The position numbers and the translations under genes are program-made. Shown here piece by piece: positions 1 through 63,955 of a DNA stretch of 64,000 bases. The DNA lies in assembly GCA_943736015.1 (NCBI GenBank), contig OX031071.1, positions 16,092,119 to 16,156,118 on the forward strand, given 5' to 3'. Below the pieces are notes generated by a model, which had not been told where the DNA came from, did not search any database, and worked only from the letters and a program-made list of their open reading frames with translations. The DNA comes from Tridacna crocea. Taxonomy: Eukaryota > Mollusca > Bivalvia > Cardiida > Cardiidae. Every line of letters begins with the position of its first letter. Positions within the stretch are counted from its first letter, which is position 1.

Positions 1-45
1 TTCAATTTAGACTAGTCCAAATTTTTGTCTTTAGTAAAGAGTTAG
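1..45 (+). repeat. TTAA-hairpin MITE A, right-end fragment
   Basis: Only the outer long arm is in the window: the segment related to TTTGGACCAGTCTAAAATTT, then the terminus TAAAGAGTTAGA. The rest lies to the left. Confidence 0.7.
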
Positions 46-170
46 ATATTTATGTCAGTAAAGGTTTAACAGATGACACTATTGTAGAGTGTGCGAAAAA
101 TTATTGATAGCTAACATAGATTAACAAAGATATGATAATTCAAGGAGTAGTGAAAATCAATGATACATGT

Positions 171-397
171 TTAACTCATTACCAAACAACAATATTCTAG
201 ACCTGTCCAAATCGAAAGTACTTGCAGACAAAATAAATGGAACCCAAAAATTCAACTTTGTTTCCAGCAGGGTAGAAAACATTGTGGAATGAGGAGAAAA
301 TGCTGGTGCCAGCATTTTCTGCTTTTCACAAAATGTCTTTTTAAAAGGCTTTTATCTCAGGCTTGTAAAAGCCAGGGATTATTTGGTACAGGGTTAA
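171..397 (-). repeat. TTAA-hairpin MITE A
   Basis: Complete copy starting TTAACTCATTACCAAAC and ending GGTACAGGGTTAA. The centre is shortened to GCTGGTGCCAGC. It shares its right TTAA (394-397) with the next copy. Confidence 0.9.
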
Positions 398-622
398 CCC
401 ATTACCACACAATCCCTGCTTTTGACGCCCCTGAGAAAGAAGCATTTAGAAAACATTGTGGGAAAAGGAGAAAATGCTGATAACCAGCATGTTCTCCTTT
501 TTCCACAATGTTTTCTACCCGTCACAAAACAAATTTCAAATCTTCAGTCACTTTTATTTTGTCATCTGCAAATGCTTTCAAATTGGACCAGTCTAAAATA
601 TTGTCATGTGGTAATGGGTTAA
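394..622 (+). repeat. TTAA-hairpin MITE A
   Basis: Complete copy abutting the previous one through a shared TTAA. It belongs to the well-preserved subgroup starting TTAACCCATTACCACACAAT. The core has a few unpaired changes (CAGCATGTTCTCC). Confidence 0.92.
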
Positions 623-966
623 AAAGTACTTGTGTGTGGATTTTTTCCATACTTAGTTTGAAGAGTGCAACATAGTTTTTTTTTTTTATTTTTTTTGTTG
701 TTGTTTTCTGATGATACGTACAAGATTGAAGACTAGTTGTGCAGGTACAAAGGAAGCATGGGAACTGCAAACACACTACTACCACAAGCAATAACAGCTG
801 CTTCATGTTGGTGCTTCTCCTACCTGAATAAATAAATTGTGAAAACAAACATTTGTATTTTTTTGTCCTCCTCCAGCTCTAGTTTTTATCTCTAGCCCAT
901 TTTAACTTTTTTTTCTAATTATTTTTTACCAGTGGTATGTTCCTGAGATACAGAAAAAATCAAATT

Positions 967-1200
967 GATCAAGCCTTTGCCAAATAATCCTGGGTTATCA
1001 TCACCCTGTAGAAGAGACCTTTTAAAATCTTTAATTGCAGTAAAAGGAGAACATGCTCGCACGCAGTATTTTCTCTTTTGTCCACAATGTTTTCTACCTA
1101 TCAAAACAGAATTACAGCATTTGAACCAATCTGAAATTTTTGTCTACAAGTGCTTTCAATTTGGACAAGGCTAAACTTTTGTCATCTGATAGTGGCTTAC
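967..1200 (+). repeat. TTAA-hairpin MITE A, decayed
   Basis: Short arm, core (AAAAGGAGAACATGCTCGC) and long arm are recognisable in order, but termini and core have diverged. An old copy. Confidence 0.7.
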
Positions 1201-1252
1201 ATAATCTACAACAATAAAAGATGTAATATAGTCTCTAAACTAAAAGTTTTAA

Positions 1253-1335
1253 TCAGTATTTCTCCTTTCCCCCATTGTTTTCTACCTTTTTGAAGACCGA
1301 ATCAATTTGGCCATATTTGATTTGTGGACCACATT
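1253..1335 (+). repeat. MITE A long-arm fragment
   Basis: Half-core and inner long arm only (CAGTATTTCTCC, then CATTGTTTTCTACC). Confidence 0.45.
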
Positions 1336-1385
1336 ATCCTTTTATCATAGCTCCAACTATTTAACTCCTTTAAAGATTGTCTCAG

Positions 1386-1513
1386 CGACCATTGATGCAA
1401 CCACCCTCAAAAGTTTACCGCCAAGTTGTTACTTGGACATTAATCTAAGGAATAGATATAGAAGAGAAGGACCATTAAAAGCTAATAAGTTATTATTCTA
1501 TGGTCTGGGAACA
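1386..1513 (+). CDS. candidate internal exon, unknown protein
   Basis: Open segment of 42 codons between an acceptor-like ACTCCTTTAAAGATTGTCTCAG and a strong donor-like GTAAGT at 1514. The first two bases would complete a split codon, and the segment ends in phase 0. The predicted peptide is mixed in composition and includes YLDINLRNRYRREGPLKANK. I do not recognise the protein. An open run of this length is not rare in three frames of AT-rich DNA, so the support is the pairing of open frame with splice signals. No partner exon is proven. Confidence 0.3.
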
Positions 1514-1803
1514 GTAAGTATTTTACTTTATTTCATGCCTTCCGGTAGGATATCGAGAAACAGCAGTGAAAATATTTTTCGATCTTACACTTGTACCACC
1601 AGTGAAAATACCGATTTTCACGTTCTTGTTGCCTAGGTAAATTGCGCGTGCCTAACAACCAGATGGGAAATATGACGTCATATACCTTAATACATTTCTC
1701 GCGCTTGACGTAACGTTGCTATGCGGAAGGGGTACGCCACGGGGAATAAGGGAAAAGAACTGTACTGAATTTTGATTATAAAGCTCCTCCCAGAAAGAGT
1801 AAA

Positions 1804-1997
1804 AAGCATGAAATAAATAGAATATTTGTTTTTTTCGGTGAAAGATCGAAATTTATTTCATCTCGTGAACACCATCGGTAATATTTTCACTCGTGGCTGT
1901 GCCACTCGTGAAAATATTACTGATGGTGTCCACTCGATGAAATAAATTTCGATCTTTCACCGAAAAAAAACAAATATCCTCTATTTATATAATCTTA
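1804..1997. repeat. palindromic MITE with long arms
   Basis: Near-perfect inverted repeat of about 85 bp per arm around an imperfect centre near 1897. The left arm contains TTCGGTGAAAGATCGAAATT and its reverse complement lies at 1939-1964. The outer parts also pair (AAATAAATAGAATATTTG against CAAATATCCTCTATTTAT). One arm of the same family recurs near 56772. It does not resemble the TTAA family. Confidence 0.85.
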
Positions 1998-2049
1998 TCA
2001 TGTAGCAAAGAATTAAAGAGGGCCGTCATATGATGCACATGGTTGAATT

Positions 2050-2274
2050 AGCCTTTTACTACACTATGTCGACTTTTAATGCCCCTAAAGGAGACGGGTT
2101 TTGAAAACATTGTGGGAAATGGAGAGAATGCTGGTTACCAGCATTTTCTCTTTTTCCCGCAATGTTTTCTACCCTATCAAAAAAATAATTTCATATGGGC
2201 CACCTTGAAACGGTCATCTACAATCGCTTTCAATTCGTACAGGTCTAAAATTTTGTCATTCAGTAAAGAGTAAA
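2050..2274 (+). repeat. TTAA-hairpin MITE A
   Basis: Full-length but aged copy. Core half is GGGAAATGGAGAGAATGCTG. The right end CAGTAAAGAGTAAA has lost TTAA. The centre reads GGTTACC although the arms are in + order. Confidence 0.85.
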
Positions 2275-3245
2275 TCTGGGCAAGACTGGCACAGGCCTTT
2301 TTAGGAGTAGGACTAAGGAAACGAGTCGACCCTCTTTTTTTCTCAAGATGACTAGCCTTCGTTCGCTGTCATGATGCAGAGTTATGTAGGTTTTATTACT
2401 GAAATAAAAGATGTGAGAATATAACATACCCGTATATAAATTTAGACATTTAATTCTAGATAACAACGCATGTAAACAACCCTGTTGCTATTTGGTGGGA
2501 AAAGTTTATCATGTTCAGGTAGACGCTTAAGCAATGTTGAACTAGAACGTAATTAGGTCTTATGTGTTTGTATGATCTACTGTATATTGCAAGTACATAT
2601 TATGTTATAATAATCAAAATAAAAACTCGTATATAAGAAGAGTGATTTAATTAACTGATCTTTCCCCCATTCACGTTTGTAAGAGTCTTTTTTCATCATT
2701 TTTTTTTTTTATATAGTTAGGTACTTTGATTTTTCTCATGCAACCATCCAAGTGATTGTGATTTTTGTGCAAAACGCAGTTATTTCCCTTAGACCATAAA
2801 TTTTGCAAGAATGTTAAGCTCGCTTGGTCCGCTGACACCTGACCTAATGTATCGCGGTGTCTTAAATTGTCAATCTTTCGAACGGTTAAAAGAATCCACA
2901 AGTTCTCATTCGGTCGATCCCATGCCATCAGTTTACCATTAACTAACATTTATCACCGGCGACTCACCGTACACTAAAGCTAGCTAGATTTATCGTCAGG
3001 TTATCGAAAGTAACTGGCTAGATCGATTTTTAGATCTATTTTAGAAGCAAGGTCTAGATGATAGATCAAGTAGATCAATTAAACTTTTTCCTCGCTAAAT
3101 TGGCCTTTTTCTTCACTCGTTAGCGATTTTCTGCTTTCAATGGGGACCAGTTGAAAAACTTTTACGTCTAGTAAACAATAAGTTTATCCTTTAGCATCGA
3201 TCTTCAGTGTTAATGACTCTATAGATCTAGACTATATAGATAAGA
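2275..3245. other. MITE-free stretch, CpG-containing
   Basis: No repeat of the main family is recognisable. Between about 2790 and 3060 CpG is more frequent than in the surroundings (for example TATCGCGGTG, CGAACGG, CATTCGGTCGATCC). With 3700-4920 it forms the most MITE-poor part of the left half, consistent with a promoter or constrained region, though nothing proves this. Confidence 0.4.
2671..2949 (-). CDS. candidate minus-strand reading frame, unknown
   Basis: ATG-initiated open frame of 92 codons on the minus strand, lying in the CpG-containing stretch. The N-terminal half (MLVNGKLMAWDRPNENLW) has mixed composition. The C-terminal part becomes lysine-rich across a T-run on the + strand and is probably not coding. 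If real, it would be a first exon ending at an internal donor near 2850. No family recognised; may be chance. Confidence 0.18.
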   Translation of the reverse strand: MLVNGKLMAWDRPNENLWILLTVRKIDNLRHRDTLGQVSADQASLTFLQNLWSKGNNCVLHKNHNHLDGCMRKIKVPNYIKKKNDEKRLLQT

Positions 3246-3390
3246 AAGCTTTTTGAAACTTGTGACATTGAGAGGAAAGCAGAAAAAGCTTATACATGTG
3301 TAGTATTTCATCCTTTTTCCATTTTGTTCTCTACCTTTTTGTTTAAAGTCGGATTTCATGAATTGAGCCACATTAAATGTCATCTATGGC
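3246..3390 (+). repeat. TTAA-hairpin MITE A, decayed fragment
   Basis: Weak match to the core and long arm (TCATCCTTTTTCCATTTTGT then CTCTACC). The right end runs into the next element. Confidence 0.4.
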
Positions 3391-3638
3391 TTGAAACACG
3401 CGAAAAGGGTAGGCCTATACGGAGATTTGCATAAAGTGTCGTTTCGGATCAGCCTGAAATTACATTTTCTGTTTTAATGTAATTTTCTGTTTTTGCACAG
3501 GTCTACTGTAGCAAAAAAAAAAAAATCTAATGTAGCCATAAAGTGCCGTCTCGGATTAGCCTGCGCGGACTGCAGGCTGATCCGAGACGACACTTTACGC
3601 AAATGTCCGGATGGCTCTTTTCGCGTGTTGCAAGCCAT
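3386..3638. mobile_element. palindromic element with ATGGCTTG termini
   Basis: Termini ATGGCTTGAAACACGCGAAA and its near complement at 3620-3638 bracket about 250 bp. Inside, 3543-3598 is itself a palindrome (GTCTCGGATTAGCCTG paired with CAGGCTGATCCGAGAC). A partial GTCGTTTCGGATCAGCCTG occurs again near the left end, so the element looks rearranged. A degraded relative lies at 13776-13837. Confidence 0.75.
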
Positions 3639-4134
3639 ATAACCCATATTCGCCTGCATATACCATTCTTCAAGAATAATCTTTGTCTTATTCCTGGTTA
3701 AAAAATTAACACAAGTTCTGATTGGCAATATAAAATGTTTCAGCAAACTAGATTCGTGTTACTTTCAAACATAGAATCTCGACGGATAAGGACAGACCAC
3801 TTTTGTTCTCTTTTCTCTTCTCTCTGATTTTATGAGATTCAATAGATCTACTTTTATGAGATTTAACAGATCTACTTTGGATTTACGATGACATTCTGAC
3901 AATCCCTGGTGGAATCTTCTGAACTTTAAAAAAGGAGCACGCACATGTAACAAACAAAACAACAATGCAGCTTGAAAGCAAGGGTTCCACATCCTCGTTG
4001 ACCCAGTTTCGATTCATCCTGTAATGCATGGAGAGTCACGTAATGCCTAAAACTGGGTTTCGAGGATTTGGGGTTCCATGTCAAACTAAAATAAATATCA
4101 GTTTGGTTTTTTTTTTTATCCATGTAAGTCGGGA

Positions 4135-4260
4135 CGATTCCGTCGCCATCTAGACAGATTCGTAGGAAATAGAGCGATCCAGGCCTAGCTGGCCACACTA
4201 AAATCTTCCGCTAGGTGTCCTATTCCAAATAATGACGTCAATCTTCGAGAATGTGACATG
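4135..4260 (+). promoter_or_regulatory. possible promoter region
   Basis: A perfect cAMP-response palindrome TGACGTCA occurs at about 4233-4240, and ATGCGCAGAACGC, resembling an NRF1-type TGCGCA element, at about 4258. CpG frequency is raised compared with flanking DNA. No TATA box is apparent. Transcription is inferred only from motif content and the open frame that follows. Confidence 0.3.
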
Positions 4261-4455
4261 CGCAGAACGCTATGTACAGCTGCATTAAGTCCACCTGGCG
4301 GGAAGATTCGTTGCAGCCAATTAGTGGCGTTTAGAGCCTTCAATGTTCGAAAAAAAATGTATGGATCAAGTAATCCATCGTCATCAAACAGAGTTACAAA
4401 CAGACGACACAAACTCAAGTCGGATGGAATGCCTCGGTTCATGTCGATCGCAAAA
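4258..4455 (+). CDS. candidate first exon, Arg-rich N-terminus
   Basis: ATG with a purine at -3 opens 66 codons ending exactly in phase 0 at a strong donor-like GTAAGTG (4456). The peptide starts MRRTLCTAALSPPGGKIRC and is rich in Arg, Lys and Ser with almost no acidic residues, as expected of a mitochondrial presequence. Composition is less AT-rich than the surroundings. Against it, the opposite strand is also open across 4185-4565, so the coding strand is uncertain. Protein not identified. Confidence 0.33.
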
Positions 4456-4840
4456 GTAAGTGAATGCATATAATTGAGGTAATATTTCCATCCAATATGG
4501 CCACCATGCTGCAGCGGCAGACGACATCTTGTACTCCAAAATATATTTGCCTTTATTCTCATCAAAATGTCTTAAAATTGCATGGAAACGTAATTTTACA
4601 TCATGGTTAATCATCATCATGAACAAGAATGTGAAATTATGGTTAATCCATTCGCAAAATTGAATCTACATGTAGATCTACTGACTTAATAGATCGAGAT
4701 CTATGTGACGATCGTGATGATGCAGACGGGTGGACCGGATACCATCTCTGGCCAAATGTAAGCTAGACCTACTTGCCACAATTCAGCAAAAGCGGTTTAA
4801 ATTATTTTGTTGATCTAGGCTTTTAGAATTTCATTTTCAC

Positions 4841-4882
4841 CGTTTGTGTGTGTGTGTGTGGGGGGGGGGGGGGGTGTGTGTG
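4841..4882. repeat. simple repeat (GT)n-(G)n-(GT)n
   Basis: A GT run, a pure G run of about 14, then GTGTGTGTG. Confidence 0.95.
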
Positions 4883-4929
4883 AAGTGACCTTGTGTCCTC
4901 GAGAGTTTGCATAACGACGACGATTTAGA

Positions 4930-5050
4930 CTGATTCAAATTGATTGCATATGCAGATGATATATAAATTTGGCTCAACTGATTTGATCGGCACATGAGAG
5001 GGTAGAAAACATTTCCTCATTTTCCCACAATGTTTTTCAAAGGTCTGATT
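4930..5050 (-). repeat. TTAA-hairpin MITE A, deleted
   Basis: Long-arm remnant (GCATATGCAGATGATA), GGGTAGAAAACATT and the distal half of the core. The proximal half-core is deleted. Confidence 0.5.
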
Positions 5051-5076
5051 AACAGGGTTTAAACTTGGAATAGTGA

Positions 5077-5195
5077 TTCGAAAACAATCCTAGTAGATCT
5101 ATTTGAAAACTTCATGGATGAAGGGGAAAATGCTGGTAACCATCATTTCTCCTTTTCCCACAATGTTTCTACCATAATAAACATAATTATCTCCA
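5077..5195 (+). repeat. TTAA-hairpin MITE A, truncated
   Basis: Short arm and core GGGGAAAATGCTGGTAACCA. The long arm ends early where a SINE begins. Confidence 0.6.
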
Positions 5196-5201
5196 AATAT
5201 A

Positions 5202-5385
5202 ATTGATTGATTGATTGTATAGTGTTTAATGCTGTTTCAGACATTTCAGTCATAATACGGTGGCCAGTGAATCTATGTACCTTCCTGGAGTTTCTGTTAT
5301 GAGCATCTCACACAATATTCTTCTCATCATCAGCCCCATATAACCATCATCAGAGTTATAAACAGCAGTGATCCTGTTTGTGTGA
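5202..5385 (-). mobile_element. tRNA-derived SINE, reverse orientation
   Basis: On the + strand it begins with the reversed tail ATTGATTGATTGATTGTAT and continues with the body shared with 14326 and 38390. The tRNA-like head is not clear. Confidence 0.6.
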
Positions 5386-5520
5386 TTAAAAAAAAGGCTA
5401 CATGGACCAATGTTGTGAAAACAAGAAAATGAAAGTGTGGCACAAAGATCTGACTGCTTACCATTCAAAGAAAGAAGACCAAGTGGGTGTGTAAATTTCC
5501 AAATTTATATATCATTTTAG

Positions 5521-5576
5521 CAATAAGTAATGAAGGAAGTGTAGGGTCATATCCTAAATTTATCGCAAGCAAAATG
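5521..5576 (+). CDS. candidate internal exon, unknown protein
   Basis: 56 nt between acceptor-like TTATATATCATTTTAG and donor-like GTAAGTTTTT. Only one frame is open (two leading bases, then 18 codons ending in phase 0): ISNEGSVGSYPKFIASKM. It lies in a MITE-free gap. Short and unconfirmed, but phase-compatible with 8714-8759. Confidence 0.2.
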
Positions 5577-5704
5577 GTAAGTTTTTCCTGATCCACTTTG
5601 TGACGGGCAAGATTTTTGCAGTTTTTTAGCTGTCATCTGAATATTGTGACAATCCAAGTCCATCGTCCCATTCAGATATTGGCTGAATCTGGGTCTGACA
5701 TAAG

Positions 5705-5865
5705 GTTACTCATTGGTAAGGAGTGAACATTTTAGACTTGTCCAAATTGACAGCATTTGCAGATGAATGACGAAATTACCAGCATTTTCTCCTTTTCTCG
5801 CAATGTTTTCAAAAGGCTTTTTTAGCAGGGGTGTTAAGAGTTGGGATTGAGTGGTAACGAGTTAA
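5705..5865 (-). repeat. TTAA-hairpin MITE A, internal deletion
   Basis: Both ends are present, but part of the long arm and the first half-core are missing, so only TTACCAGCATTTTCTCC remains. Ends GGTAACGAGTTAA. Confidence 0.75.
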
Positions 5866-6089
5866 CTCGTAGGCTTATAGAAAGGAGACAAAGAGAAACA
5901 ACTGTGACAGAGACAAGACAAAAATGCCAAATTAACTGACTGAGTGATAACATTTGCAGGCTGGAAGTCTCATCAAATATCAGACACTGTTCTGCCATGG
6001 AATTGTATCTTCTTCCATGGATAAACTTGCAGAAATATTGGATTTTTTTTTTATCAAAAAACAAAAGATAGATTGCACTTTAGTATAAC

Positions 6090-6160
6090 TCTTTAATAAA
6101 CAACCCCAGGTTTTCATGACTGAGAAAGAAGCCTTTAGGAGACATTGTTGGAAAGGAGAC
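6090..6160 (+). repeat. MITE A short-arm fragment
   Basis: Left end, short arm (CTGAGAAAGAAGCCTTTAGG) and the first bases of the core, then lost. Confidence 0.55.
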
Positions 6161-6190
6161 TTTAAACTTCATAAAGAAGATTTATTTTTT

Positions 6191-6417
6191 TTAAACTCTT
6201 TACCAAACGGGAAAATTATAGACTGGTTTAAATCGAAAGCATTGGCAGACAACAAAGTAAATGTGACTGAAAAATTGATATTTGTTTCTGTAATGGTAGA
6301 AAACATTGTGGGAAAAGGAGAAAATGCTGGTAACCAGGTTTTTTTTTTCTCACAATATTTCCAGAAGGCTTTTTTCTCAGGGTCATTAAAAGTCGGGGTT
6401 GTGTGGTGAAGAGTTAA
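6191..6417 (-). repeat. TTAA-hairpin MITE A
   Basis: Full-length copy. The second half-core has decayed into a T-run, so the hairpin is no longer perfect. Confidence 0.88.
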
Positions 6418-6418
6418 A

Positions 6419-6594
6419 GATAGTGGAAAAAGGAGAAAATGCTGGTAACCAGCATTTTCTCAATGTTTTGCAATGTTTTCTAATCCTTCAAAGGCAAAGT
6501 TCAATTTTCTATTAAAGTTTATTTTTTCATCTGCTAAATCTTGTATTTTGGGAAATTGTTGAAATTCTTAAATTCTGTCGCTTGGTACAGAGTA
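6419..6594 (+). repeat. TTAA-hairpin MITE A, left-truncated
   Basis: Starts at the core directly after the previous copy and keeps the long arm, ending GGTACAGAGTAAAA. Confidence 0.7.
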
Positions 6595-6624
6595 AAACCC
6601 TCCTTTTCCAGAAGAACCCTGGCC

Positions 6625-6672
6625 AGTTAGCTCGGTGCATCTGACTCATGACCTTATAGGAACAGGTTCAGT
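6625..6672 (+). mobile_element. SINE head fragment
   Basis: tRNA-like A-box region GTTAGCTCGGTGCATCTGAC, with no body following. Confidence 0.4.
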
Positions 6673-6678
6673 ATTTAG

Positions 6679-6905
6679 TTAACTGTTTACCACACAATCC
6701 TGACTTTTAACGACCCTGAAGAATAGACTTATTGAAAACATTGTGGGAAAAGGAGAAAATGCTGGTAACCAGCATTTTCTCCTTTCCCAACAATGTTTTC
6801 TGCCCTATCAAAGAGAAATGCCATCATTTGAGCAACTTGTAAATTGTTGTCTGCAAATGCTTTCAGTTTGGAAAGGACTACTTTTTTGTTGTTTGTTAAA
6901 AAGTT
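6679..6905 (+). repeat. TTAA-hairpin MITE A
   Basis: Starts TTAACTGTTTACCACACAAT. Core nearly intact. Right end GTTAAAAAGTTAC. Confidence 0.88.
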
Positions 6906-6975
6906 ACGGCAACTTTCTGACCAGTAATTTTTTGCTTCTCGCCTCAGATGCGTGCAAGATTGAGAAGTCAGTGGT

Positions 6976-7204
6976 TTAACTCTTTACCAAACAACAAAAT
7001 TTTAGACTGGTTGAAATTGAAAGAATTTGCAGACGACAAAATAAATCTCGCTGAAAAATTGAAATTCATTTTGGAAAAGGTGGAAAACATTTTTGGAAAA
7101 GGAGAAAATGCTGGTTACCAGCATTTTCTCCTTTTCCAAAAATGTTTTCAAAAGGCTGATTTCTCAGGGTCTTTAAAAGTCGGGATTGTGTGGAAAAGAG
7201 TTAA
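6976..7204 (-). repeat. TTAA-hairpin MITE A
   Basis: Well-preserved copy with TTAA at both ends. The hairpin flanks differ from consensus in parallel (CATTTTTGGAAAAGG against CCTTTTCCAAAAATG). Confidence 0.93.
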
Positions 7205-7305
7205 GGACAGGTGTGAGGAAGCCAGGAAAATACATAAGTAGGTACACTGGCCATCATGATACGACCTTAGCTGTTAAAACTGTTAAAATCCAATACAAAC
7301 TAAAA
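7205..7305 (+). mobile_element. SINE 3' half
   Basis: Starts exactly at the MITE border with GTGTGAGGAAGCCAGG and ends with the tail-proximal sequence CGACCTTAGCTGTTAAAA, matching the 3' part of the SINE at 21516. The head is missing. Confidence 0.6.
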
Positions 7306-7417
7306 CAGTTTTCTGGGATGTAGAAGAAACACGATACCATCTGTACCATCTGTGTCCATTATAATGGGACATTTATCTATTTAAATGGTACACTGTTCCA
7401 GTATGCCTTGTGATGTC

Positions 7418-7600
7418 TGTGGTTGTGAGGTATAGCATCAGCCTCTTAACATAAAGGTCCCAAGTTCAAGACCCAGGAGCAGGTGTCAACTTCAAGATCT
7501 TTCATTGGCCAACACATTTGGCTCGAGCACTGGTGTAGTTCCCAGGAAGCAGAATCTAGAGATTAGTGTGAGTTGTAATGCATTGTTTCTAAATCAATGA
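7418..7600 (+). mobile_element. tRNA-derived SINE, second type
   Basis: Head with GGTATAGCATCAGCC and a B-box-like GTTCAAGACCC. The body ends AAATCAATGA just before the next MITE. Confidence 0.55.
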
Positions 7601-7601
7601 G

Positions 7602-7775
7602 TTTAATGCTTTACTACACAATCCCAAATTTTAATGACAATGTAAGAGAAGGCTGTTGAAAACATCATGGGAAAAGGAGTAAATGCTGGTACTCAGCATT
7701 TTCTCATTCTACCACCAAAAAATACCATTCACATTTAATTTATCATCTGCAAATCCTTTCAATTTGGACCTGTCT
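7602..7775 (+). repeat. TTAA-hairpin MITE A, fused right end
   Basis: Short arm and core GGGAAAAGGAGTAAATGCTG. The outer long arm is deleted so CTGTCTAAA runs straight into the next copy's CTCTTTACC. Confidence 0.8.
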
Positions 7776-8022
7776 AAACTCTTTACCACACTATCCTGAC
7801 TTTTAACGACCCTGAAATAGAAACATTTTGAAAACATTGTGGGAAAAGGAGAAAATGCTGGTAACCAGCATTTTCTCCTTTCCCACAATGTTTTCTACCC
7901 CGCTGGAAACAAATTTCAATGTTTCTACCCCATTCTAAACCAAAAAATATCATTCACATTTATCATCTGCAAATCCTTTCAATTTGGACCAGTCTAAATT
8001 TTTTTGTTTGGTAAAAAGTTAA
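7773..8022 (+). repeat. TTAA-hairpin MITE A with long-arm duplication
   Basis: Complete core. The long arm carries an extra ATGTTTCTACCCCATTC segment, making this copy about 20 bp longer than usual. Confidence 0.88.
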
Positions 8023-8232
8023 ACTAAAGTCAGCCTTGCCTAAGCAGAGCACTCACTGATCATGTAGTTTAATTTCAAGATGAGAACTGAAATTTTTGTG
8101 CAATCTGATCTTGATCTGTACTGACTGCACTAGAAGCTTGCCTGTTATTTAGAGTTAGACATTCTATTCACAGGTACTGAAGATGCTTTGGCAACTTGGA
8201 AAAAAGATGGCCTCTACTTAGTCACTTTCATT

Positions 8233-8372
8233 TTAACTCCTACAAAATACTGTATTTCAAGCACCCTTGGAAAAAAGGCTTTTGAAAATATCTATGAGAC
8301 AGGAGAAATTGCTGTTAACCAGTACTTACCCCTTTCTCATCAATGTATTCTGTCTTTGTAAAGATAATTTAA
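8233..8372 (+). repeat. TTAA-hairpin MITE A, truncated
   Basis: Starts TTAACTCCTACAAAATAC. Short arm and degenerate core. Ends at the TTAA shared with the next copy. Confidence 0.6.
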
Positions 8373-10914: not shown

Positions 10915-10927
10915 TTCCACACAGGAC

Positions 10928-55776: not shown

Positions 55777-56081
55777 CTGCTGATGAGTGATTATTCGATT
55801 AAAATGGGAAATAAAAAAACATGGAATTAACATTTCAGTAATTCTTTTTTCATAATTTACCTGTACTCAAATAGGCTTCTCACAATGGACAACCTTGGGA
55901 ATGCATTATGGGATATCAGAATGCATTGTTGGAGCTGTCAATCAAATTACATTAGAGAGCGGTAAAGAATGAATGCAATGGACAGTGGGCTGAATGAATG
56001 CATTAGCGGACCCCGTGTCATTTAATTGGATATTTGTGCAGGGTGTTGTCACCAGTAACCACTTGAATACCCGTATTTATG

Positions 56082-56132
56082 CCTTTGCCAAATGACAAAA
56101 TTTTAGGCTCCCCTATATTGAAAGTATTTGAG
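56082..56132 (-). repeat. MITE A long-arm fragment
   Basis: CTTTGCCAAATGACAAAATT to GAAAGTATTTGAG. Confidence 0.6.
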
Positions 56133-56141
56133 AGCCTCAAG

Positions 56142-56366
56142 TTAACTCTTAACCAAAGAACAAAGTTCAGATACATCCAAATTGAAATTACTTAGAAGAC
56201 AAGAAATTAAACATTACTCCAAACTTAAGATTTGCCTTTGGAAGGGTATAAAACATTGTAATAGTTTAATGCTATTTACCAGCATTTCTTTTTTTTCAGG
56301 CCGCATTTTGGAAAGTCCTCATTATCAGGGTTGTGAAAACTCCGAATTGTGGAGTAAAGGGATTCA
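56142..56366 (-). repeat. TTAA-hairpin MITE A, aged
   Basis: TTAACTCTTAACCAAAGAAC to GTGGAGTAAAGGGATTC. Core degraded. Confidence 0.75.
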
Positions 56367-56771
56367 AAATGAGGGTAAAAAACAAAAAATACCATGAGTG
56401 TAAAATAAGTTGGCTCATTTATGGTAACTTATTTTTCAGTCATGGATCCATTCATGCTAAAAATCATTTTATTCTGACTTTGAACCCTTTTTGTTTAACA
56501 TATTAGGGTGTAGTCAAAAACAGCCAATCAAACTTCAAGTTGTATGAGTTATCATAACACTGAAAGTACTGACAGGCTAAAAAAGAGAACCAGGAGACAA
56601 CAGTTCATGCATGCAAGTTACCAAGCTCATGCAATTCAACCAGGGGGATATATTATGTAATATATACACATTTACCCTATATTTTTTGCATTTTTTCAAA
56701 ATATTGTTATGCTTGGTTATGTGGGCATTACAGGGAATTATTGAAAACAACAACAACAAAAAAAAGGGTTA

Positions 56772-56890
56772 TAAGCATGAAATAGATAGAATATTTGGCT
56801 TTTTTTTTTTCGGTGAAAGATCAAAATTTATTTCATATTGTTAACATCTTGGGAAACATTTTCAAATAAGTAGCAGCCACTCGTGAAAAC
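56772..56890 (+). repeat. one arm of the 1804 palindrome family
   Basis: AGCATGAAATAGATAGAATA and TTTCGGTGAAAGATCAAAAT then CAGCCACTCGTGAAAACA. The opposite arm is missing. Confidence 0.75.
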
Positions 56891-56914
56891 ATGATGGAAA
56901 ATAATATATATGCG

Positions 56915-57020
56915 AAAATCTGATAATTTCTCATTGAAAGGATAAAAAACATTGTGGAAGGCAGAAAATATTTTTCTATCATGTTTTCAAAGGTTTCTTT
57001 TCAGGATTGTCTGGTAAAGT
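56915..57020 (-). repeat. MITE A, decayed
   Basis: GATAAAAAACATTGTGGAAG and short arm to GTCTGGTAAAG. Confidence 0.55.
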
Positions 57021-57021
57021 C

Positions 57022-57275
57022 CCAACACTTGACACACAAGCCCAGTTTTAACTGTGGAAAAGAAGGCTTTTGAAAATATTATGGAAAAAGGCAAAAATAT
57101 TGGAAACTGGCATTTTCATGTTTACAAAAATATTGGAAACTGGCATTTTCATGTTTGCCTTTGATGGTTTCTATTTTCTGAACGAGAAAACTCACATTTA
57201 AGCCATGTCATTGTCTGCAAATTGCTTTCCAATTTAACAGAACTAAAATGTTTAGGTTGCTACAGAATTAAGTAG
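57022..57275 (+). repeat. TTAA-hairpin MITE A with internal duplication
   Basis: Core region contains a 33-bp exact tandem duplication (57092-57157; CAAAAATATTGGAAACTGGC) that separates the two stem arms. Confidence 0.75.
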
Positions 57276-57301
57276 ATATTCAAGTTTTGCACAAATTGGT
57301 T

Positions 57302-58521
57302 TTAACTGTTTATGCCTGGCATCCACTAGGACGCGGAGGGGACCGGGAAGCTTCGCGGTAAAAATAAATTGATTTCGGCATACTTTCCTGTGAGAAAACA
57401 TCGATTCTGTACAGAAATGTATATATACTTGGACTGTCCGCGGACTTCTTGCTAGCATACTTAGGATTGTCCGCATAAACAATCCGGAATAGTTTCGAAA
57501 GTTCAGGCGTGAAAGCGGATTGTTTCAGGACAATGCAGACACGCTTAGGATTACACCAGGAAATGTTTGGGACAACCAGTTTCAGTGCACGACACTAGGC
57601 GGAGACGGTATGGAAATGCAGAGGTTGCATTCATAGTTTATATTAGAGTGTTTGCATCTCTCGTTCCATGGACTGACATCGACAAATTTGCAGTGTATCA
57701 GAGAAAATAACATCGTTCTAGACAAACAAGAATGAAAATTACCACAAAATCCAGTGAACTATTTTTCCATGGTCGACTTTTTTTTCTTTTTTGTCTCGGC
57801 ATATTGTGTGCAGGAGAGATTAAAAAACATGTCTACCCTGGTGGAAGTCAAACTGCAAGTGACAGAGCACTGATTTTGATATGTTTAGGGAGTAGGTTGC
57901 CTAGATACGAAAGTCATGCGACATTTTCCATTCATTGTTCAGAGAGCATGCCGCGACCGCTCTGAACATTCAGGAAAGGTTCCGCGAACCTTGTGTATCG
58001 ATTCGTCCTTGTGTCCGCAAGCTGTCCACGTTGCTGAAGCTTTCTGGAATATATGCGGAAGACAACAACGCGGACAAGATGCCGAAGGTGTAAGGAAATT
58101 CATTTCTGCGTCCAAATTTTGCTCTCGATCAAAATTTCGACACGGACAAAATTGCCGATCCGGAAGGCTCCAAATCGGGCTGAAGCATCTAGGACAACAA
58201 TAAGAAGCCATTAGGAACATGCGGAAGCTTTGCCGAATATTAAATTTGTTGTCCGCATGCTATCCGCGTATTGTCCTGGGCCTAGTGAACGCCTGGTCTC
58301 GCCAAACAACAAAATTTTGGACTAGTCCGATTTTAAAGCATTTGCAGACGACAAGATAAACGTGAATCAAAAATATTGAAATTTGATTTGGAAAGGGTAG
58401 AAAATATGGTGGGAAAAGGAGAAAATGCTGGTTACCAACATTTTCTCTTTTTCCCACAATGTTTTCAATGGCTTTCTTTCTCAGGGTAGATAAAAGTTTG
58501 GAATGTGTTCTAAAGACTTAA
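57302..58521 (-). repeat. TTAA-hairpin MITE A split at its left terminus
   Basis: TTAACTGTTTA (57302-57312) is the left terminus. The rest (CCAAACAACAAAATTTTGGA...) starts at 58302, with a full core and short arm to about 58521. Confidence 0.8.
57313..58301. mobile_element. TIR element with GCGGAC/GTCCGC motifs
   Basis: Left end GCCTGGCATCCACTAGGACG and, read inward from the right, CCAGGCGTTCACTAGGCCC form imperfect TIRs. Subterminal zones are rich in GTCCGC/GCGGAC. About 990 bp and notably CpG-rich. Target duplication is unclear. The style (motif-packed ends) is reminiscent of the Harbinger element but the link is weak. Confidence 0.65.
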
Positions 58522-58553
58522 AAACACTTTCTGAAAACAAAAAAAAATGTGGC

Positions 58554-58759
58554 TTAACGCTTTACCCCACAGCAAAATCTTAGACCTATCCAAATCGAAA
58601 GCATTTGTAGATCGCAATTTCATGATGGCTCAAATGACAATTTTTCTTTGATAGGGTAGAAAACTTTATGGGAAAAGGAGAAAATGCTGAGAAAAAACCT
58701 TTTCCCACAACGTTTTGTAACTGCTTGTTAAAATGCAGGTTTGTTGGGTTTAGGGTTAA
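58554..58759 (-). repeat. TTAA-hairpin MITE A, half-core deleted
   Basis: TTAACGCTTTACCCCACAGC. Core loses its centre (AATGCTGAGAAAAAACC). Confidence 0.85.
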
Positions 58760-58776
58760 GTGATTTTAATTATCTC

Positions 58777-58994
58777 TTGACACATTACCACACAACATAA
58801 TTTAAGCCTTGTCCAAATTGAAAGCATTTGCCGACAACGATTTCAGTGTGGTTCAAATGGTGCAAGTTTTATTTGAAAGGGTAGAAAACATTGTGGGAAA
58901 AGGAGAAAATACTGGTTTCCAGTTTCCCACAATGTTTTCAAAAGGCTTCTTTCCAAGGGTCATTAAATAGTGTCATTGTGTGGTAAAGGGTTAA
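58777..58994 (-). repeat. TTAA-hairpin MITE A, core shortened
   Basis: Long arm good. AAAATACTGGTTTCCAGTTT joins directly to CCCACAATG. Confidence 0.88.
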
Positions 58995-59329
58995 AGGGAA
59001 GAATAAATATTTGTGGAAATCGAGAAAATAATAGTCACCATTTTTAAAAAAAAAACAACGCTTATTACAACTTGAGATTTTGGTGAAAGATTGAATGAAG
59101 ATGCAGAGGTAATTACAAATATATAACCCTAAAAGAGTCTTTGTTGAATTGAACAGAATGAAGACTTCATTTAGAAAAATAGGACAGATTTCTTAAATGG
59201 TGTAAAGTGAATTAACTGAAGTCGTTTGTTTTTGCAAATTACTGCACAATTGAATTACTTCTGATGCCAATTCAATTCCCCAGAAAAACATTGCAGTTTG
59301 GGGAACCATTTCAATTCCATAAAACTAAA
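58995..59329. other. gap without recognisable element
   Basis: AT-rich, no repeat or frame of note. Confidence 0.4.
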
Positions 59330-59566
59330 TTAACCCTTTACTGCACAGTGCCAAGTTTAAAATAAACTTAATAAAAACAAGAGGCATTTAAAATCATAGC
59401 AGGAAAAGGAGCAAATGTTAATAGCCAGCAATTTTCCCTTTTACTCCAATGTTTTCTATTCTGTCATTCAATCCTACTATTTTAGCCATATTTGGTTTGA
59501 AGTATGTAAAAATGCTTTCTGTTTAATGCAAGCCAAAAGTTTTTTTTCCTTTGGTAGTCAGCTAAG
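59330..59566 (+). repeat. TTAA-hairpin MITE A, aged
   Basis: TTAACCCTTTACTGCACAGT; core AAATGTTAATAGCCAGCAAT. Confidence 0.75.
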
Positions 59567-59633
59567 CATTTTTCTGCTTCTGCAACTGATATTTATGAAT
59601 AGAGGAATCTGATTTGACAAAGAGATTGCATAG

Positions 59634-59790
59634 TTCAACCCTTTTCCATACATTCATAAGTTTTAACACAACTTCTAAAAAAGAGGTCTTTTGAAAATAT
59701 TGTGGGAAAAAAGGAAATGATTGTAACTGGAATTTTCTCCTTTTTCAACATTGTTTTCTATTTTTCATAGACAAATCGTATCCTTTAACT
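59634..59790 (+). repeat. TTAA-hairpin MITE A, right-truncated
   Basis: CAACCCTTTTCCATACATTC; core AATGATTGTAACTGGAATTT. Confidence 0.7.
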
Positions 59791-59999
59791 CTTTACCAAA
59801 GGACAAAATTTTTGACTTGTCCAAATTGAAAGCACTTGCATATAACAAAATAAATGAGACTCAAAAATTGAAATTTGTTTTGGGAAGGGTAGAAAACATG
59901 GTGATGCTCTTTACCAGCATTTTCTCCTTTTCCCACAATGTCTTTAAAAGGTTTCTTTCTCTGAGTCATGAAACCCAGGATTGTTTGGGAAAGGGTTAA
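59785..59999 (-). repeat. TTAA-hairpin MITE A, half-core deleted
   Basis: AAAACATGGTGATGCTCTTT replaces the first stem arm. The end is B-like (TTGTTTGGGAAAGGGTTAA). Confidence 0.88.
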
Positions 60000-60041
60000 G
60001 CTAAATTTGATGTTGCTTCTCAGACCTTCATGTCCTTTGAT

Positions 60042-60271
60042 TTAACCCATTACCACACAATCCCTACTTTTGACGACCCTGAGAAAGAAGCCTCTAGAAA
60101 ACATTGTGGGAAAAGGAGAAAATGCTGGTAACCAGCATTTTCTCCTTTTCCCAAAATGTTTTCTACTCTTCACAAAACAAATTTCAAATTTTCAGTTACT
60201 TTTATTTTGTTGTCTGCAAATGCTTTCAATTTGGACCAGTTCTAAAATATTGTCGTTTGGTAATGGGTTAA
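60042..60271 (+). repeat. TTAA-hairpin MITE A
   Basis: Young-subgroup copy, near-perfect core, TTAA at both ends. Confidence 0.96.
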
Positions 60272-60433
60272 ACAGAAAAAGGTATGCCTTTAACCTTGAC
60301 AACAAATAAATAAGATACAGGGTAGGACTGCTTTCAAATTCTTCCCTTTACTACTGAATAAATGGAATATAAAACTTTCGATCAGCTGGAAAGGCATAAA
60401 TGTCCCAATCAAATTGCAGAGTTACTTACAGAT

Positions 60434-60563
60434 TTGACAACGCATCAGAGAGTTCAAGTCCAAACTGAAGCGAAGTTTTTCACATAATCTGGTATTGGAC
60501 CTGCAGTGTCTCTAATCAGCGCTTTGTAGTACCTGACCGAGTACATCACAAAATGGTCAGGGT
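60434..60563 (-). CDS. possible minus-strand coding segment
   Basis: A strong minus-strand donor (CAAATCT then GTAAGTAAC) lies at about 60433-60421. Two overlapping frames upstream are open: one reads YYKALIRDTAGPIPDYVKNF and stops at 60454; the other runs into the donor. The frames conflict, so coding is doubtful. Confidence 0.15.
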
Positions 60564-60564
60564 T

Positions 60565-60785
60565 ATATCTTTACCAGAAAATCCCAAGTTTTAATGATTT
60601 CAAGGAACAAGGCTTTTAAAAACAACATGTGAAATGAAGAAAATGCAGGTAACCTGCATTTTCTCCACTTCACACAATGTTTTTGTACCCTTTTGAGAAC
60701 AAACGACATCTTTTTGTCCAAGGTGTTTTTGGAAATATGTTGTGTTTGGACTTTTCTAAAATTTTGTCACATAGTAAAGAGGTAC
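60565..60785 (+). repeat. TTAA-hairpin MITE A with covariant core
   Basis: Stem TGTGAAATGAAGAAAATGCA and right half TGCATTTTCTCCACTTCACA share several changes from consensus on both arms (GGG to GTG, CTGG to CAGG). TTAA lost at both ends. Confidence 0.8.
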
Positions 60786-61303
60786 TTGACTTTTTCACTT
60801 TGTTTGGAGGCTGTTACACGTTGTTACTAAAACACTGTTTTTCAGACGTCAACAAGATTTATCACCTTGTATAGAAATCTGCACACATCTAACACTGTCC
60901 ACTCTGTTCAAATTATTAATGTTTGGATGGAAGGCATCTCAAATGACCACACCGGTCACTCATTCAATAACAGCATGCTATTGTGTGCAGGACAAGATAA
61001 ATTGTAACGGATTTACACCTGATTGACCAAGACTGACCGCTGCTACAGGGCTGTACTCGATTACAGGATATCGCGTCATCTCGTATAAGCCAAGTGACAT
61101 CTACCCGTACCTCCATGCAAATTTTCTTCATTATATTTCGATGTTGATGTTCCTTTGATTAGAAGATTACTGCATTTACAATGTAAATAAGTATGTAAAA
61201 AGGGAACAGGAAAGTTGTGGTACATGATAAAATTTTACAAATTTTGTCCTGATTATTGAATTTGTGAGACTGATGAGAAATTATATAGATTAGAATTATA
61301 ATG
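60786..61303. other. gap without recognisable element
   Basis: Contains CpG-bearing CTGACCGCTGCTACAGG and ATATCGCGTCATCTCG near 61030-61085. No frame with splice support. Confidence 0.35.
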
Positions 61304-61421
61304 TTGGGTAACGATTCTGTACCATGCAACCTAAGTTTTAACAACCAATGTTCATTTTGTCATCGGCAAATGCTTTCAATTTGGACTATCCTAAATTTGT
61401 TTTTTTTTTGTAAAGAGTTAA
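61304..61421 (+). repeat. MITE A lacking the core
   Basis: Short-arm end (GGTAACGATTCTGTACCATG, AGTTTTAACAACC) joined directly to the outer long arm (TTCATTTTGTCATCGGCAAA) and GTAAAGAGTTAA. Confidence 0.8.
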
Positions 61422-61531
61422 TTAGAAAAACATCAAAGAATAATAAGTCTATATTACTACCAAATATATTTCTTGGTACTAAATTTCAACGATTGAGAGA
61501 ATCTTGGGCCATAGTTTAGAATCAACTTTAC

Positions 61532-61812
61532 TTAAGCCATTACCAAGTGATCCCGACTGTTGTTGACCCTGAGAAAGAAAGCCTTTGAAAATATTGTGGG
61601 AAAAGGAGAAAATGCTTGTCCAAATTGAAAGCATTTGCAGACAACAAATTAAAAGTGACTGAAAATTTGAAATTTGTCTGGTGAAGGGTAGAAAACATTG
61701 TGGGAAAAGGAGAAAATGCTGGTTACCAGCATTTTCTCATTTTCCCTCAATGTTTTCTAAAGGCTTCTTTCTCAGGGGCGTCAAAAGTAGGGATTGTGTG
61801 GTAATGGGTTAA
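61532..61812. repeat. MITE A with two short arms
   Basis: Left: short arm and half-core up to GGAGAAAATGCTTG. Right: a minus copy from mid-long-arm (TCCAAATTGAAAGCATTTGC) through an intact core to a short arm ending GGTAATGGGTTAA. Confidence 0.88.
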
Positions 61813-61819
61813 ATATCAG

Positions 61820-61877
61820 CTTCAAATGCTTTAACTCTAGACAAAGTCAAAAATTGTATCGTTTGGTGAAAAGTTAA
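61820..61877 (+). repeat. MITE A right-end fragment
   Basis: CTTCAAATGCTTTAACTCTA to GTTTGGTGAAAAGTTAA. Confidence 0.6.
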
Positions 61878-62020
61878 AGTTTTATTTAATGCTTCAGCCA
61901 GTTAGAAAATTTGACAAAATATTATTTCTAGAAAAGAGAAGGAATTGTTAAAATAAAAAAGCCTTACTAAATTAGCTGTACAAAATTGTTTTTGTATAAC
62001 TTTGATTGACTGTATTGTAT

Positions 62021-62248
62021 TTAACCCATTACCACACAATCCCTACTTTTGACGCCCCTGAGAAAGAAGCCTTTTGAAAACACTGTGGGAAAAGGAGAAA
62101 ATGCTGGTAACCAGCATTTTCTCCTTTCCCACAGTGTTTTCTACCCTTCCCAGAACAAATTTCAATTTTTCAATCACCTTTATTTTGTCGTTTGCAAATG
62201 CTTTCAGTTTGGACCAGTCTAAAATTTTCTCGTGTGGTAAAGAGTTAA
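62021..62248 (+). repeat. TTAA-hairpin MITE A
   Basis: Young-subgroup copy close to 45729 and 54396. One base lost in the stem (CTCCTTTCCC). Confidence 0.96.
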
Positions 62249-62371
62249 TGCTATTTTCAATATTATTTCACTTATACAATGGATACCAACTGGGCTCTGC
62301 TTCTATAACTTTTAAAGTTCGTTCTCAACTGAATTTAGCTGGAAAAAAGTTTAAAAGAACTGAGCTGTGGC

Positions 62372-62646
62372 TTAACCCTTACCAAACCACAACATTTTAG
62401 ACTGGCCCAAATTGAAGGCAATTGCTGGCAACAAAATAAATGTAACTAAAAAATTGAAATTGGTTTTAGGAAGGAAAGAAAACATTGTGGAAAAAGGAGA
62501 AAATGCTGGTTACCAGCATTTTCTCCTTTTCCCATTGTGGAAAAAGGAGAAAATGCTGGTTACCAGCATTTTCTCCTTTTCCCATACTGTCTTCAAAAGT
62601 CTTCTGTTACAGGGTTGTTGAAAGTTGGGATTGTGTGGTAAAGGGT
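62372..62646 (-). repeat. TTAA-hairpin MITE A with duplicated core
   Basis: 62484-62533 and 62534-62583 are identical 50-bp copies of the hairpin core (GGAAAAAGGAGAAAATGCTG ...). Right TTAA lost (AAAGGGTCACC). Confidence 0.95.
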
Positions 62647-62737
62647 CACCAAACAATCTAAATATTTTTGGTCCAAATCTCAAGAAATTTCTTTTCCTTG
62701 TTTTAAGAAATTCAGCTTCTGATTGGCTTAATTAAAA

Positions 62738-62830
62738 TGACTGGAGAACAGGGGATCATGGTTCGATCCCTGGCTATGAGCCCTGGCTCAGTAAACTTCT
62801 TTCAGAAGATTGATGACAGGCACATTATTA
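62738..62830 (+). mobile_element. SINE fragment
   Basis: CATGGTTCGATCCCTGGC (B box) then GCTCAGTAAACTTCTTTCAG. Confidence 0.55.
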
Positions 62831-62837
62831 GTCTCCA

Positions 62838-62877
62838 AATGCCTCCAACTTAGAAAAATCTAAAACTTTGTTAAAAA
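62838..62877 (+). repeat. MITE A right-end fragment
   Basis: AATGCCTCCAACTTAGAAAA, then CTTTGTTAAAAAG. Confidence 0.45.
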
Positions 62878-62902
62878 GCTGGAAGAAAAAAGGCTTTGAA
62901 AG

Positions 62903-62931
62903 TGTGTGTGTGTGTGGGGGGGGGGGGGGGA
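62903..62931. repeat. simple repeat (GT)n-(G)n
   Basis: GTGTGTGTGTGTG then a G run of about 14. Confidence 0.95.
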
Positions 62932-63324
62932 ACAATTGGTCATGCCATGCACAATTACTTTCCCACGAGTTCTTGGGCAATAATGACCAAACCAGGTGTA
63001 ATGGGGTCCAGTTACGTGGCCTTCACTGGGACCCATTGTCCCCTATAAAGGGCCATCTCTAATAAAGGTGACATTTTGTCACTCATCTGCACAGTAAGTT
63101 TCCTGGTGATTGCCTGATTATCACCCGGTGACCATGAAATGAAGTCAACCCTTTTCTCTGTATCCAGAGGACTTAGATTTTTTTTTTTTATGTAAATAGG
63201 CATGATTTGAATTGTCCTCCAGAATCACGCTCAGAAAATTTCCTTGTAAGTATAGAAGTATTTCGAATTAATGAAAAAGTAACATTTTTGTAAAGTTTGA
63301 TAACTTTTTTCAATTACCAGAGGT
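62932..63324. other. gap without recognisable element
   Basis: Contains GGGACCCATTGTCCCCTATA. Nothing else identified. Confidence 0.35.
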
Positions 63325-63553
63325 TTAACTCTTTACCAAACAACAAAATTTTAGATGTTTCCATATTGATAGCTACTGCAGAAAACAAATCTAATCTTAA
63401 CTGATGTGATTTGTCTTTGATAGGGGAAAAAACATTGTAGGAAATAGAGAAAAAGCTTGTTCTAGGATTTCATCCTTGTCCCACAATGTTTGCACAGACC
63501 TTTTTTTTTTCAACAAGGTCATTAAAATCCTGTTATGTTCAATAAAGGATTAA
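63325..63553 (-). repeat. TTAA-hairpin MITE A, aged
   Basis: Full length with TTAA at both ends; core badly eroded (AAAAGCTTGTTCTAGG). Confidence 0.8.
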
Positions 63554-63727
63554 GGAACATTTTTGGATTCGGGAAAGGGTTGACATCAAATCCAATATTT
63601 CACCAGGGCTCTCATGCCCACACATGATCCCTCCTCTTGCCCAACAATTTTGGCGGCAACCACTTGTAAGCTTACCTGAAAATTGGCTAACTTTGTCCTT
63701 AGATGACCAGAGCCCTCATTGTTTGGT

Positions 63728-63955
63728 AACCCTTTCCAAAATGACAAAATTTCAGACTAGGCAAAAACAGAAAACTACAGCAGACAGTTAACACAATTTT
63801 GAATCAAATATAATTATAGAAATTTGCCTTTTGGAAAGACTGTAAGTATTTGATGGGGGTGGGTGAGAGGGGAAGAAAGAGAAAGTTGATTACCACAATG
63901 TTTTCAAAGGCTTAAAATCATTAAGGTTTTTAAAACTTGAGTTATTAGTAAAAAG
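63728..63955 (-). repeat. TTAA-hairpin MITE A, aged
   Basis: GTAACCCTTTCCAAAATGAC to TTAGTAAAAAGTTTC. Core nearly gone (AGTTGATTACC). Confidence 0.65.

Follow-up and report, generated by a model that had tools for sequence, protein, structure and literature searches.

What kind of element fills about a third of a 64,000-nucleotide stretch of the genome of the bivalve Tridacna crocea (contig C16, positions 16092119-16156118; hereafter, the window), and is it a feature of this locus or of the whole genome? The element is a 229-bp miniature inverted-repeat transposable element (MITE) bounded by TTAA and built around a long palindrome. MITEs are usually viewed as two short ends flanking dispensable filler. 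In the present case, the filler has diverged, whereas the central hairpin stayed palindromic across families at a fixed spacing, and the elements account for about 20% of a large genome. We consider them to be, probably, a non-autonomous, TTAA-targeting MITE superfamily of the piggyBac type in which the hairpin is constrained in the source copies and likely aids mobilization. If the hairpin drives mobility, this would help explain how a few MITEs outrun all others; for annotation, such elements represent a large share of this genome.

Abundance and anatomy of the element

A profile trained on 45 complete copies from the window (a training set that may slightly favor the window) matched at 122 non-overlapping places, which together make up 33.0% of the window bases, in good agreement with the preliminary description of this stretch, which had arrived at about 115 copies and 30% by hand count. 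The matches are divided between the strands (61 on each) with a mean spacing of ~525 bp, close to the ~550 bp and both orientations noted previously; 50 of them are full-length (25 per strand). The four family consensuses described below, when used singly, yielded 110 matches (32.2% of bases). No matches to the MITE profile were obtained in three Markov-shuffled windows, and these shuffles, along with reversed-letter controls, exclude chance palindromes and chance terminal inverted repeats (TIRs). It is thus confirmed that the repeats are real and far above chance.

The 229-bp consensus, derived from the profile of the 45 complete copies, starts and ends with TTAA. The left 55 nt comprise TTAA, a 13-bp imperfect TIR and the left arm; these are followed by the core, a 67-nt odd palindrome GAAAACATTGTGGGAAAAGGAGAAAATGCTGGTAACCAGCATTTTCTCCTTTTCCCACAATGTTTTC, and by a 107-nt right part that finishes in the second TIR and TTAA. 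The length of 225-230 bp, short TIRs and unequal arms reported previously hold up; the core, given as 65 nt, has to be corrected. The terminal motif is TTAA-CCC[T/A]TT, with CCCTTT at both ends of three family consensuses, and CCCATT on the left and CTCTTT on the right of the F1 consensus; in the four consensuses, the two TIRs match at 10-13 of the 13 positions. Folded as RNA, the single strand of one copy forms a long core stem and a TIR stem (z = -10.9 against dinucleotide shuffles).

The TTAA borders are consistent. Both ends carry TTAA in 28 of the 50 full-length copies in the window, and at least one end does in 45; in a wider tally of 142 full-length copies (window and stretches L009-L045, with L002-L008, which were chosen by similarity, excluded), TTAA is found at both ends of 80 copies, at one end of 47 and at neither end of 15. 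The exact left end CCCTTTACCACACAATCCC occurs 9,644 times genome-wide and is directly preceded by TTAA in 7,213 cases (75%); the loss of TTAA at left ends is about what 7% per-base decay gives. A search that was blind to the core, covering 357 kb and allowing a spacing of 70-900 bp, detected 116 TTAA-TIR pairs, 96 of them mostly in the MITE family, compared with 1 pair in the reversed-letter control; 62 of the 64 elements delineated in this manner (median length, 229 bp) contain the core, and the remaining two have lost much of it. Some neighboring copies (54168-54398 and 54396-54623) have a terminal TTAA in common, as would result if one element had inserted into the end of another already in place. 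Altogether, the elements are short and uniform in length, possess TIRs and a TTAA duplication, and are interspersed in high copy number in both orientations, all of which is characteristic of MITEs. Among long elements with MITE ends and a different interior, the same 357 kb contain three candidate pairs, 2.6-3.0 kb apart.

The genome searched consists of 1,048,827,098 bases (1,048.8 Mb) in 31 contigs, of which C1 to C18 range from 77 to 40 Mb. In 20 stretches of 10 kb, placed at round-number coordinates along 17 further large contigs, we found 11.1±1.7 (standard error) profile matches, fragments included, per 10 kb, covering 19.4±3.1% of the bases. The density ranges from 0.8% to 53%, and each of the 20 stretches holds at least one match. 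Scaled to the genome, these values translate into 1.16±0.18 million matches and ~204 Mb; given that 87 of the 224 sampled matches are full-length, the number of complete copies should lie a little below half a million. Genome-wide, 88,271 exact copies of a 45-nt core segment were counted (44,028 and 44,243 on the two strands), and the same letters reversed do not occur anywhere in the genome. The sample appears to be representative because its 200 kb contain 16 exact 45-nt cores, or 80 per Mb, close to the genome-wide density of 84 per Mb. The core pieces of two other families, F4 and F2, have 5,865 and 5,292 exact genome-wide matches, respectively, so these are large families too. The view of a very successful non-autonomous TTAA family is therefore supported, with about a fifth of the genome occupied by sampling.

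A local artefact or a segmental amplification limited to the region of the window, to which the tandem duplication of some copies (46506-47063) might be taken to point, is ruled out by the genome-wide counts and the sampled stretches. Given these counts and the consistent TTAA borders, the possibility that the preliminary description had held against itself, that is, repeats confined to this locus or lacking regular TTAA borders, does not apply. Its claim of an unusual local density has to be abandoned: the window, with 19 profile matches per 10 kb, has ~1.7 times the sampled mean, 2 of the 20 sampled stretches are denser (50% and 53%), and just 3 exact 45-nt cores are present in the window (47 per Mb).

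The divergence of 159 near-full copies (window and L009-L028) from the consensus spans 5.7% to 41%, with a median of 16%. The arms are less than 5% apart in at most 2 of the 12,561 copy pairs; thus, a very recent burst is not seen in this sample. The exact core pattern has no occurrences in viral_contigs or in genome_contigs, from which records close to the present genome may be excluded.

Families and the palindromic core

Clustering of the same 159 copies by arms only produced three clusters of at least 5 copies, F1 (82), F4 (10) and F30 (5); the other 62 copies fell into smaller clusters and were left out. A fourth family, F2 (15 copies aligned), was reached via lone cores with different arms. 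Hence at least four (sub)families that share the geometry but differ in the arms, a subdivision that the preliminary description did not see. The consensus lengths are 229 bp (F1 and F2) and 228 bp (F4 and F30), and in each family the core begins at position 56, 55 nt from the near end and 106-107 nt from the far end. All four consensus cores are palindromic at 66 of 66 positions.

Comparison of the families shows how the core changes. F1 and F30 have identical cores (0% difference), with differences of 14.7% in the TIRs and 25.2% in the arms; between F1 and F4, the respective values are 9.0%, 14.7% and 31.5%. In both comparisons, then, the families differ less in the internal region than in the TIRs. 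The 6 differences between the F4 and F1 cores all lie within 3 compensatory pairs; among the 9 differences between the F2 and F1 cores, 8 form 4 compensatory pairs and 1 is at the unpaired center. The probability of such patterns under random placement is ~2e-6 for F4 and ~9e-8 for F2, each comparison taken alone. The F2 core is identical to that of F1 at 58 of 67 positions, and each TIR at 9 of 13. In gapped alignments, the right arm of F2 is no more similar to those of the other families than shuffled sequence; place by place, 13 of 32 and 30 of 80 arm positions are identical between F1 and F2 (8.1±2.4 and 22.1±3.7 in shuffles), a trace of shared descent without shift.

Within F1, not one of the 67 core sites (0 of 67) varies in more than 20% of the 82 copies, as opposed to 26 of 128 arm sites and 6 of 34 TIR sites (Fisher P = 9e-6 for core versus arms and 1e-3 for core versus TIR, with sites treated as independent). 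The core changes in resident F1 copies include 248 single ones, 15 complementary doubles (5.7±2.2 in shuffles), 9 of which are at one site, and 6 other doubles. Because most of the changes in resident copies are unpaired, old copies can decay freely and mostly go unrepaired; the constraint operates on those copies from which new ones arise.

Transposase assignment and rival explanations

Three features in combination suggest the piggyBac type: a duplicated TTAA, ends of the form CCC[T/A]TT and piggyBac genes encoded by the same genome. A genome-wide search with PF13843 (piggyBac DDE domain), in which the best candidates were scored, gave 118 matches, all above the cut-off and many in long stop-free frames. 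The 624-amino-acid protein of locus L034, the sole one compared with PDB, matched piggyBat (9c0f, E 9e-43) and piggyBac (6x67, E 8e-39). Eighteen piggyBac loci were fetched (the other ~100 of the 118 domain matches include fragments of single loci). Both TTAACCC-TIR ends could be placed in 8 of these, one end in 3 (L033, L039, L041) and none in 7 (L029, L030, L032, L038, L043, L045, L046). The ends belong to five types: CCCTTTATATAC (L034, L035), CCCATTTATGCC (L031, L044), CCCTTTCAGTGC (L036), CCCTAGTCATGC (L037, L040) and, less surely, CCCTCTAGAGCC (L042). CCCATT ends are found among the piggyBac elements of this genome. These elements resemble the MITEs in the TTAA target and TTAACCC ends, and carry a DDE_Tnp_1_7 transposase, but their TIRs agree with those of the MITEs over no more than the initial 4 to 7 bases. 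The MITE-type ends, TTAACCC[T/A]TTACCACAC or TTAACCCTTTCCCAAAC, were not found as transposon ends at any of the 18 fetched loci. Compared with the MITE arms and core, the piggyBac ends (four types compared) score at most ~2.5 standard deviations (SD) above shuffles, the shared TTAACCC included. Thus, the earlier piggyBac assignment stands as far as the target, the kind of ends and the resident piggyBac genes are concerned; given that no element with the same TIR was found in the 18 loci, piggyBac is the best superfamily assignment rather than a proven partner.

Two candidate ends were examined and rejected: TTAACCCATTACCACACAAT, near the decayed transposases of L045 and L046, is not a transposon end because complete MITEs sit at both places, and TTAACCCTGAAGTACTC, downstream of the transposases of L029 and L032, is oriented away from the gene. 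PiggyBac transposase matches, most of them partial and many interrupted by stops, cluster at C8:56710862-56757774 and C13:4481437-4612957. Inside the window, there is no PF13843 match among the best candidates scored, and the ten of the 41 window open reading frames (at least 95 amino acids) that were scanned against Pfam include three with transposase matches, two Tigger/pogo and one Harbinger; these scans revealed no autonomous partner in the window, in line with the preliminary description.

Under the scenario that we favor, a piggyBac-type transposase supplied in trans would cut and paste the MITEs via the 13-bp TIRs into TTAA, and the 67-nt perfect palindrome, held at fixed distances from the ends, would be a second cis-acting part. 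Most of the offspring would come from source copies with an intact palindrome, and a hairpin or cruciform, or a dimeric protein bound to the palindrome, probably helps the ends to pair or to mobilize. After insertion, the copies decay and the palindrome mostly goes unrepaired, as the unpaired changes in resident copies show. The palindrome might act as a cruciform or hairpin that draws the two ends close to each other, as a symmetric protein site, or by way of a folded intermediate whose one arm serves as template for the other. That the palindrome is a true second transposition signal evolving via compensatory changes only, which together with the TIRs would have made this one of the most abundant MITE superfamilies known, is a bolder proposition that we put forward tentatively, as a serious possibility on the doubtful side.

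Several observations weigh against the favored scenario. None of the 18 piggyBac loci (ends placed in 11) matches the MITE TIR past the first 6-7 bases. An intermediate between the F1 and F4 cores with one compensated pair, and thus palindromic, occurs only 8 times genome-wide, compared with 2 for a palindrome-breaking hybrid (F4 left half and F1 right half); the intermediate being about as rare as the hybrid, the rarity of broken palindromes is not demonstrated genome-wide, and the hybrid was dropped as evidence. At low-variance sites, divergence is 0.041 in the core versus 0.064-0.065 in the arms and 0.057 in the TIRs, a gap that selection on source copies alone does not predict and that may reflect undetected subfamily structure of the arms or some conversion. 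There are only four consensuses, that of F30 derived from 5 copies, and the family comparisons are not independent; likewise, the F1 pair site with 9 of the 15 complementary doubles displays shared rather than independent changes. Covariation over all 159 copies (85 complementary doubles versus 27±5 in shuffles) was not used as proof because kinship among copies inflates it.

Constraint is not the only conceivable origin of a perfect palindrome: if one arm were copied from the other through a folded single strand or a template switch, the progeny would always be perfect palindromes, without any selection. All four consensuses are perfectly palindromic, with each difference outside the center compensatory, and the RNA fold of a single copy far exceeds its shuffles in stability, all as such copying would have it; yet it predicts palindromy, not identity of letters, and the F1 and F2 cores are much more alike than their arms, which are ~2 SD above shuffles. 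Little correction is apparent in resident copies, and we regard arm copying as unlikely. Spread of the core among families by gene conversion or recombination, such that its sameness would reflect exchange instead of constraint, agrees with the identical 67-nt consensus core of F1 and F30 in the face of 25% arm divergence, and with the lower divergence of the core than of the arms in every distance bin reported. However, among 275 cores tested (11 ambiguous and 84 unassigned), the 180 that could be assigned by arms include no mosaics, with 156 F1 cores between F1 or F30 arms, 10 F4 cores between F4 arms and 14 F2 cores between F2 arms, which makes such exchange improbable.

Two further explanations concern the machinery and the purpose of the element. 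Kolobok transposons also have a TTAA target. A transposase from this or another TTAA-targeting superfamily would account for the fact that no piggyBac locus examined shares the MITE TIR past the first 6-7 bases (Kolobok transposases were not searched for), but the piggyBacs of this genome end in TTAACCC, and CC[C/T]T ends are called a piggyBac hallmark in the consulted part of PMC2872659; we view such a source, too, as improbable. Retention of the hairpin for an RNA role (as a small-RNA precursor or RNA structure) or for a host function, as opposed to mobility, could be read into the fold of the single copy, but the window contains no Rfam matches above the gathering score, and the accumulation of unpaired changes in resident copies implies that most copies are not individually maintained, so that this explanation is highly improbable.

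With regard to known systems, the CMITEs of the coral Acropora resemble the present MITEs in their association with piggyBac, TTAA duplications, TIRs of the CCCTTTCCC type and tandem arrays, and in an internal region that varies less from family to family than the TIRs do, according to the consulted part of the report (PMC2872659). There, one element of the CMITE group is described as carrying the internal region type of another family, and the authors likewise speculate that the conserved internal region matters for transposition (PMC2872659). The CMITEs are ~100 bp long and were estimated at ~1,600 copies in A. millepora (PMC2872659), against 229 bp and on the order of a million matches here. 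The main text of that paper does not contain the words hairpin, palindrom or secondary structure (PMC2872659), whereas the region conserved in the present MITEs forms a perfect palindrome that has undergone compensatory changes. The coral group is the nearest precedent found; the present case is far larger in scale and adds structural evidence on the core. Rice mPing belongs to another superfamily. Experiments on mPing show that internal MITE sequence promotes or inhibits transposition; the abstract reports no palindrome (PMC9921582). Pokey of Daphnia, with its mPok MITEs, is likewise a piggyBac-superfamily transposon accompanied by MITEs, likened here by description and not by core, and, as described in the consulted parts of the reports, inserts at a specific ribosomal DNA site as well as at other locations (PMC4912750, PMC3849761). 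The present element did not appear in general literature searches, including the consulted part of a bivalve transposon survey (PMC10294476), with the host-specific literature outside the search.

Features of the window and other repeats

Representative copies, including adjoining copies and tandem duplications, are collected in Table 1. A case of a MITE copied by tandem duplication was also encountered outside the window, in L023:541-9080, where six decayed MITE cores recur at intervals of ~1.7 kb and the sequence separating them is repeated.

Table 1 MITE copies and related features of the window (positions in the 64,000-nt stretch).
Feature	Position	Strand	Evidence
Whole window, 122 non-overlapping MITE matches, 33.0%	1..64000		profile scan; consensus scan 110, 32.2%
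Typical full-length F1 copy, 229 bp, TTAA at both ends	60042..60270	+	profile and consensus scans, fold
67-nt palindromic hairpin core of copy 60042..60270	60097..60163		whole-copy fold z = -10.9
Full-length F1 copy, first seed	29041..29262	+	profile scan
Full-length F1 copy	37734..37961	-	profile and consensus scans
Full-length F1 copy	62021..62247	+	profile and consensus scans
F1 copy meeting opposite-strand copy at 394-621	172..397	-	profile scan
F1 copy	394..621	+	profile and consensus scans
F1 copy adjoining F30 copy	24187..24412	+	profile and consensus scans
F30 copy	24413..24634	-	profile and consensus scans
F30 copy	29704..29936	+	profile and consensus scans
F1 copy, terminal TTAA in common with copy 54396..54623	54168..54398	+	profile scan
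F1 copy, TTAA in common with copy 54168..54398	54396..54623	+	profile scan
F4 copy (family with compensatory core changes)	22339..22566	-	profile and consensus scans
F4 copy	33145..33371	-	profile and consensus scans
F4 copy	38099..38322	-	profile and consensus scans
F4 copy	40263..40485	-	profile and consensus scans
F4 copy	44605..44807	-	profile and consensus scans
F2 copy (different arms, homologous palindromic core)	40710..40936	-	consensus scan
F2 copy, core 45427-45493	45321..45547	-	consensus scan
F2 copy, core 49724-49790	49618..49844	-	consensus scan
F2 copy adjoining F1 copy at 55350-55557	55128..55351	+	profile and consensus scans
Two-copy tandem duplication, 277-bp unit, 95% matches, full-length F1 copy per unit	46506..47063		
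50-bp unit tandemly duplicated within hairpin core	62483..62585		

Apart from the MITEs, the window encodes a Tigger/pogo-type transposase in two frames at 10913-12102 (+), with CENP-B_N at 10913-11254 and HTH_Tnp_Tc5 and DDE_1 at 11284-12102; the frame that follows (12103-12603) has no Pfam match. A fragment of a Harbinger-type transposase (DDE_Tnp_4) is present at 18602-19015 (-), near an inverted repeat with 53-nt arms (18278-18410). A separate TTAA-bounded element of 793 bp (48828-49620) has a TIR matching at 14 of 14 positions, AAGGCTACGTAGCC, and long internal inverted repeats; its right end adjoins the F2 MITE at 49618-49844. Another repeat (30077-30318), with arms GGTAAAAAAGCC and GGCTTTTTTACC, encloses a short GGGAAAAGGA...TCCTTTTCCC segment similar to the core of the MITEs. 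Finally, a 156-bp tandem array of about 9 copies spans 43050-44438; a related repeat is located at L025:1925-3312, and relatives occur elsewhere in the sample.

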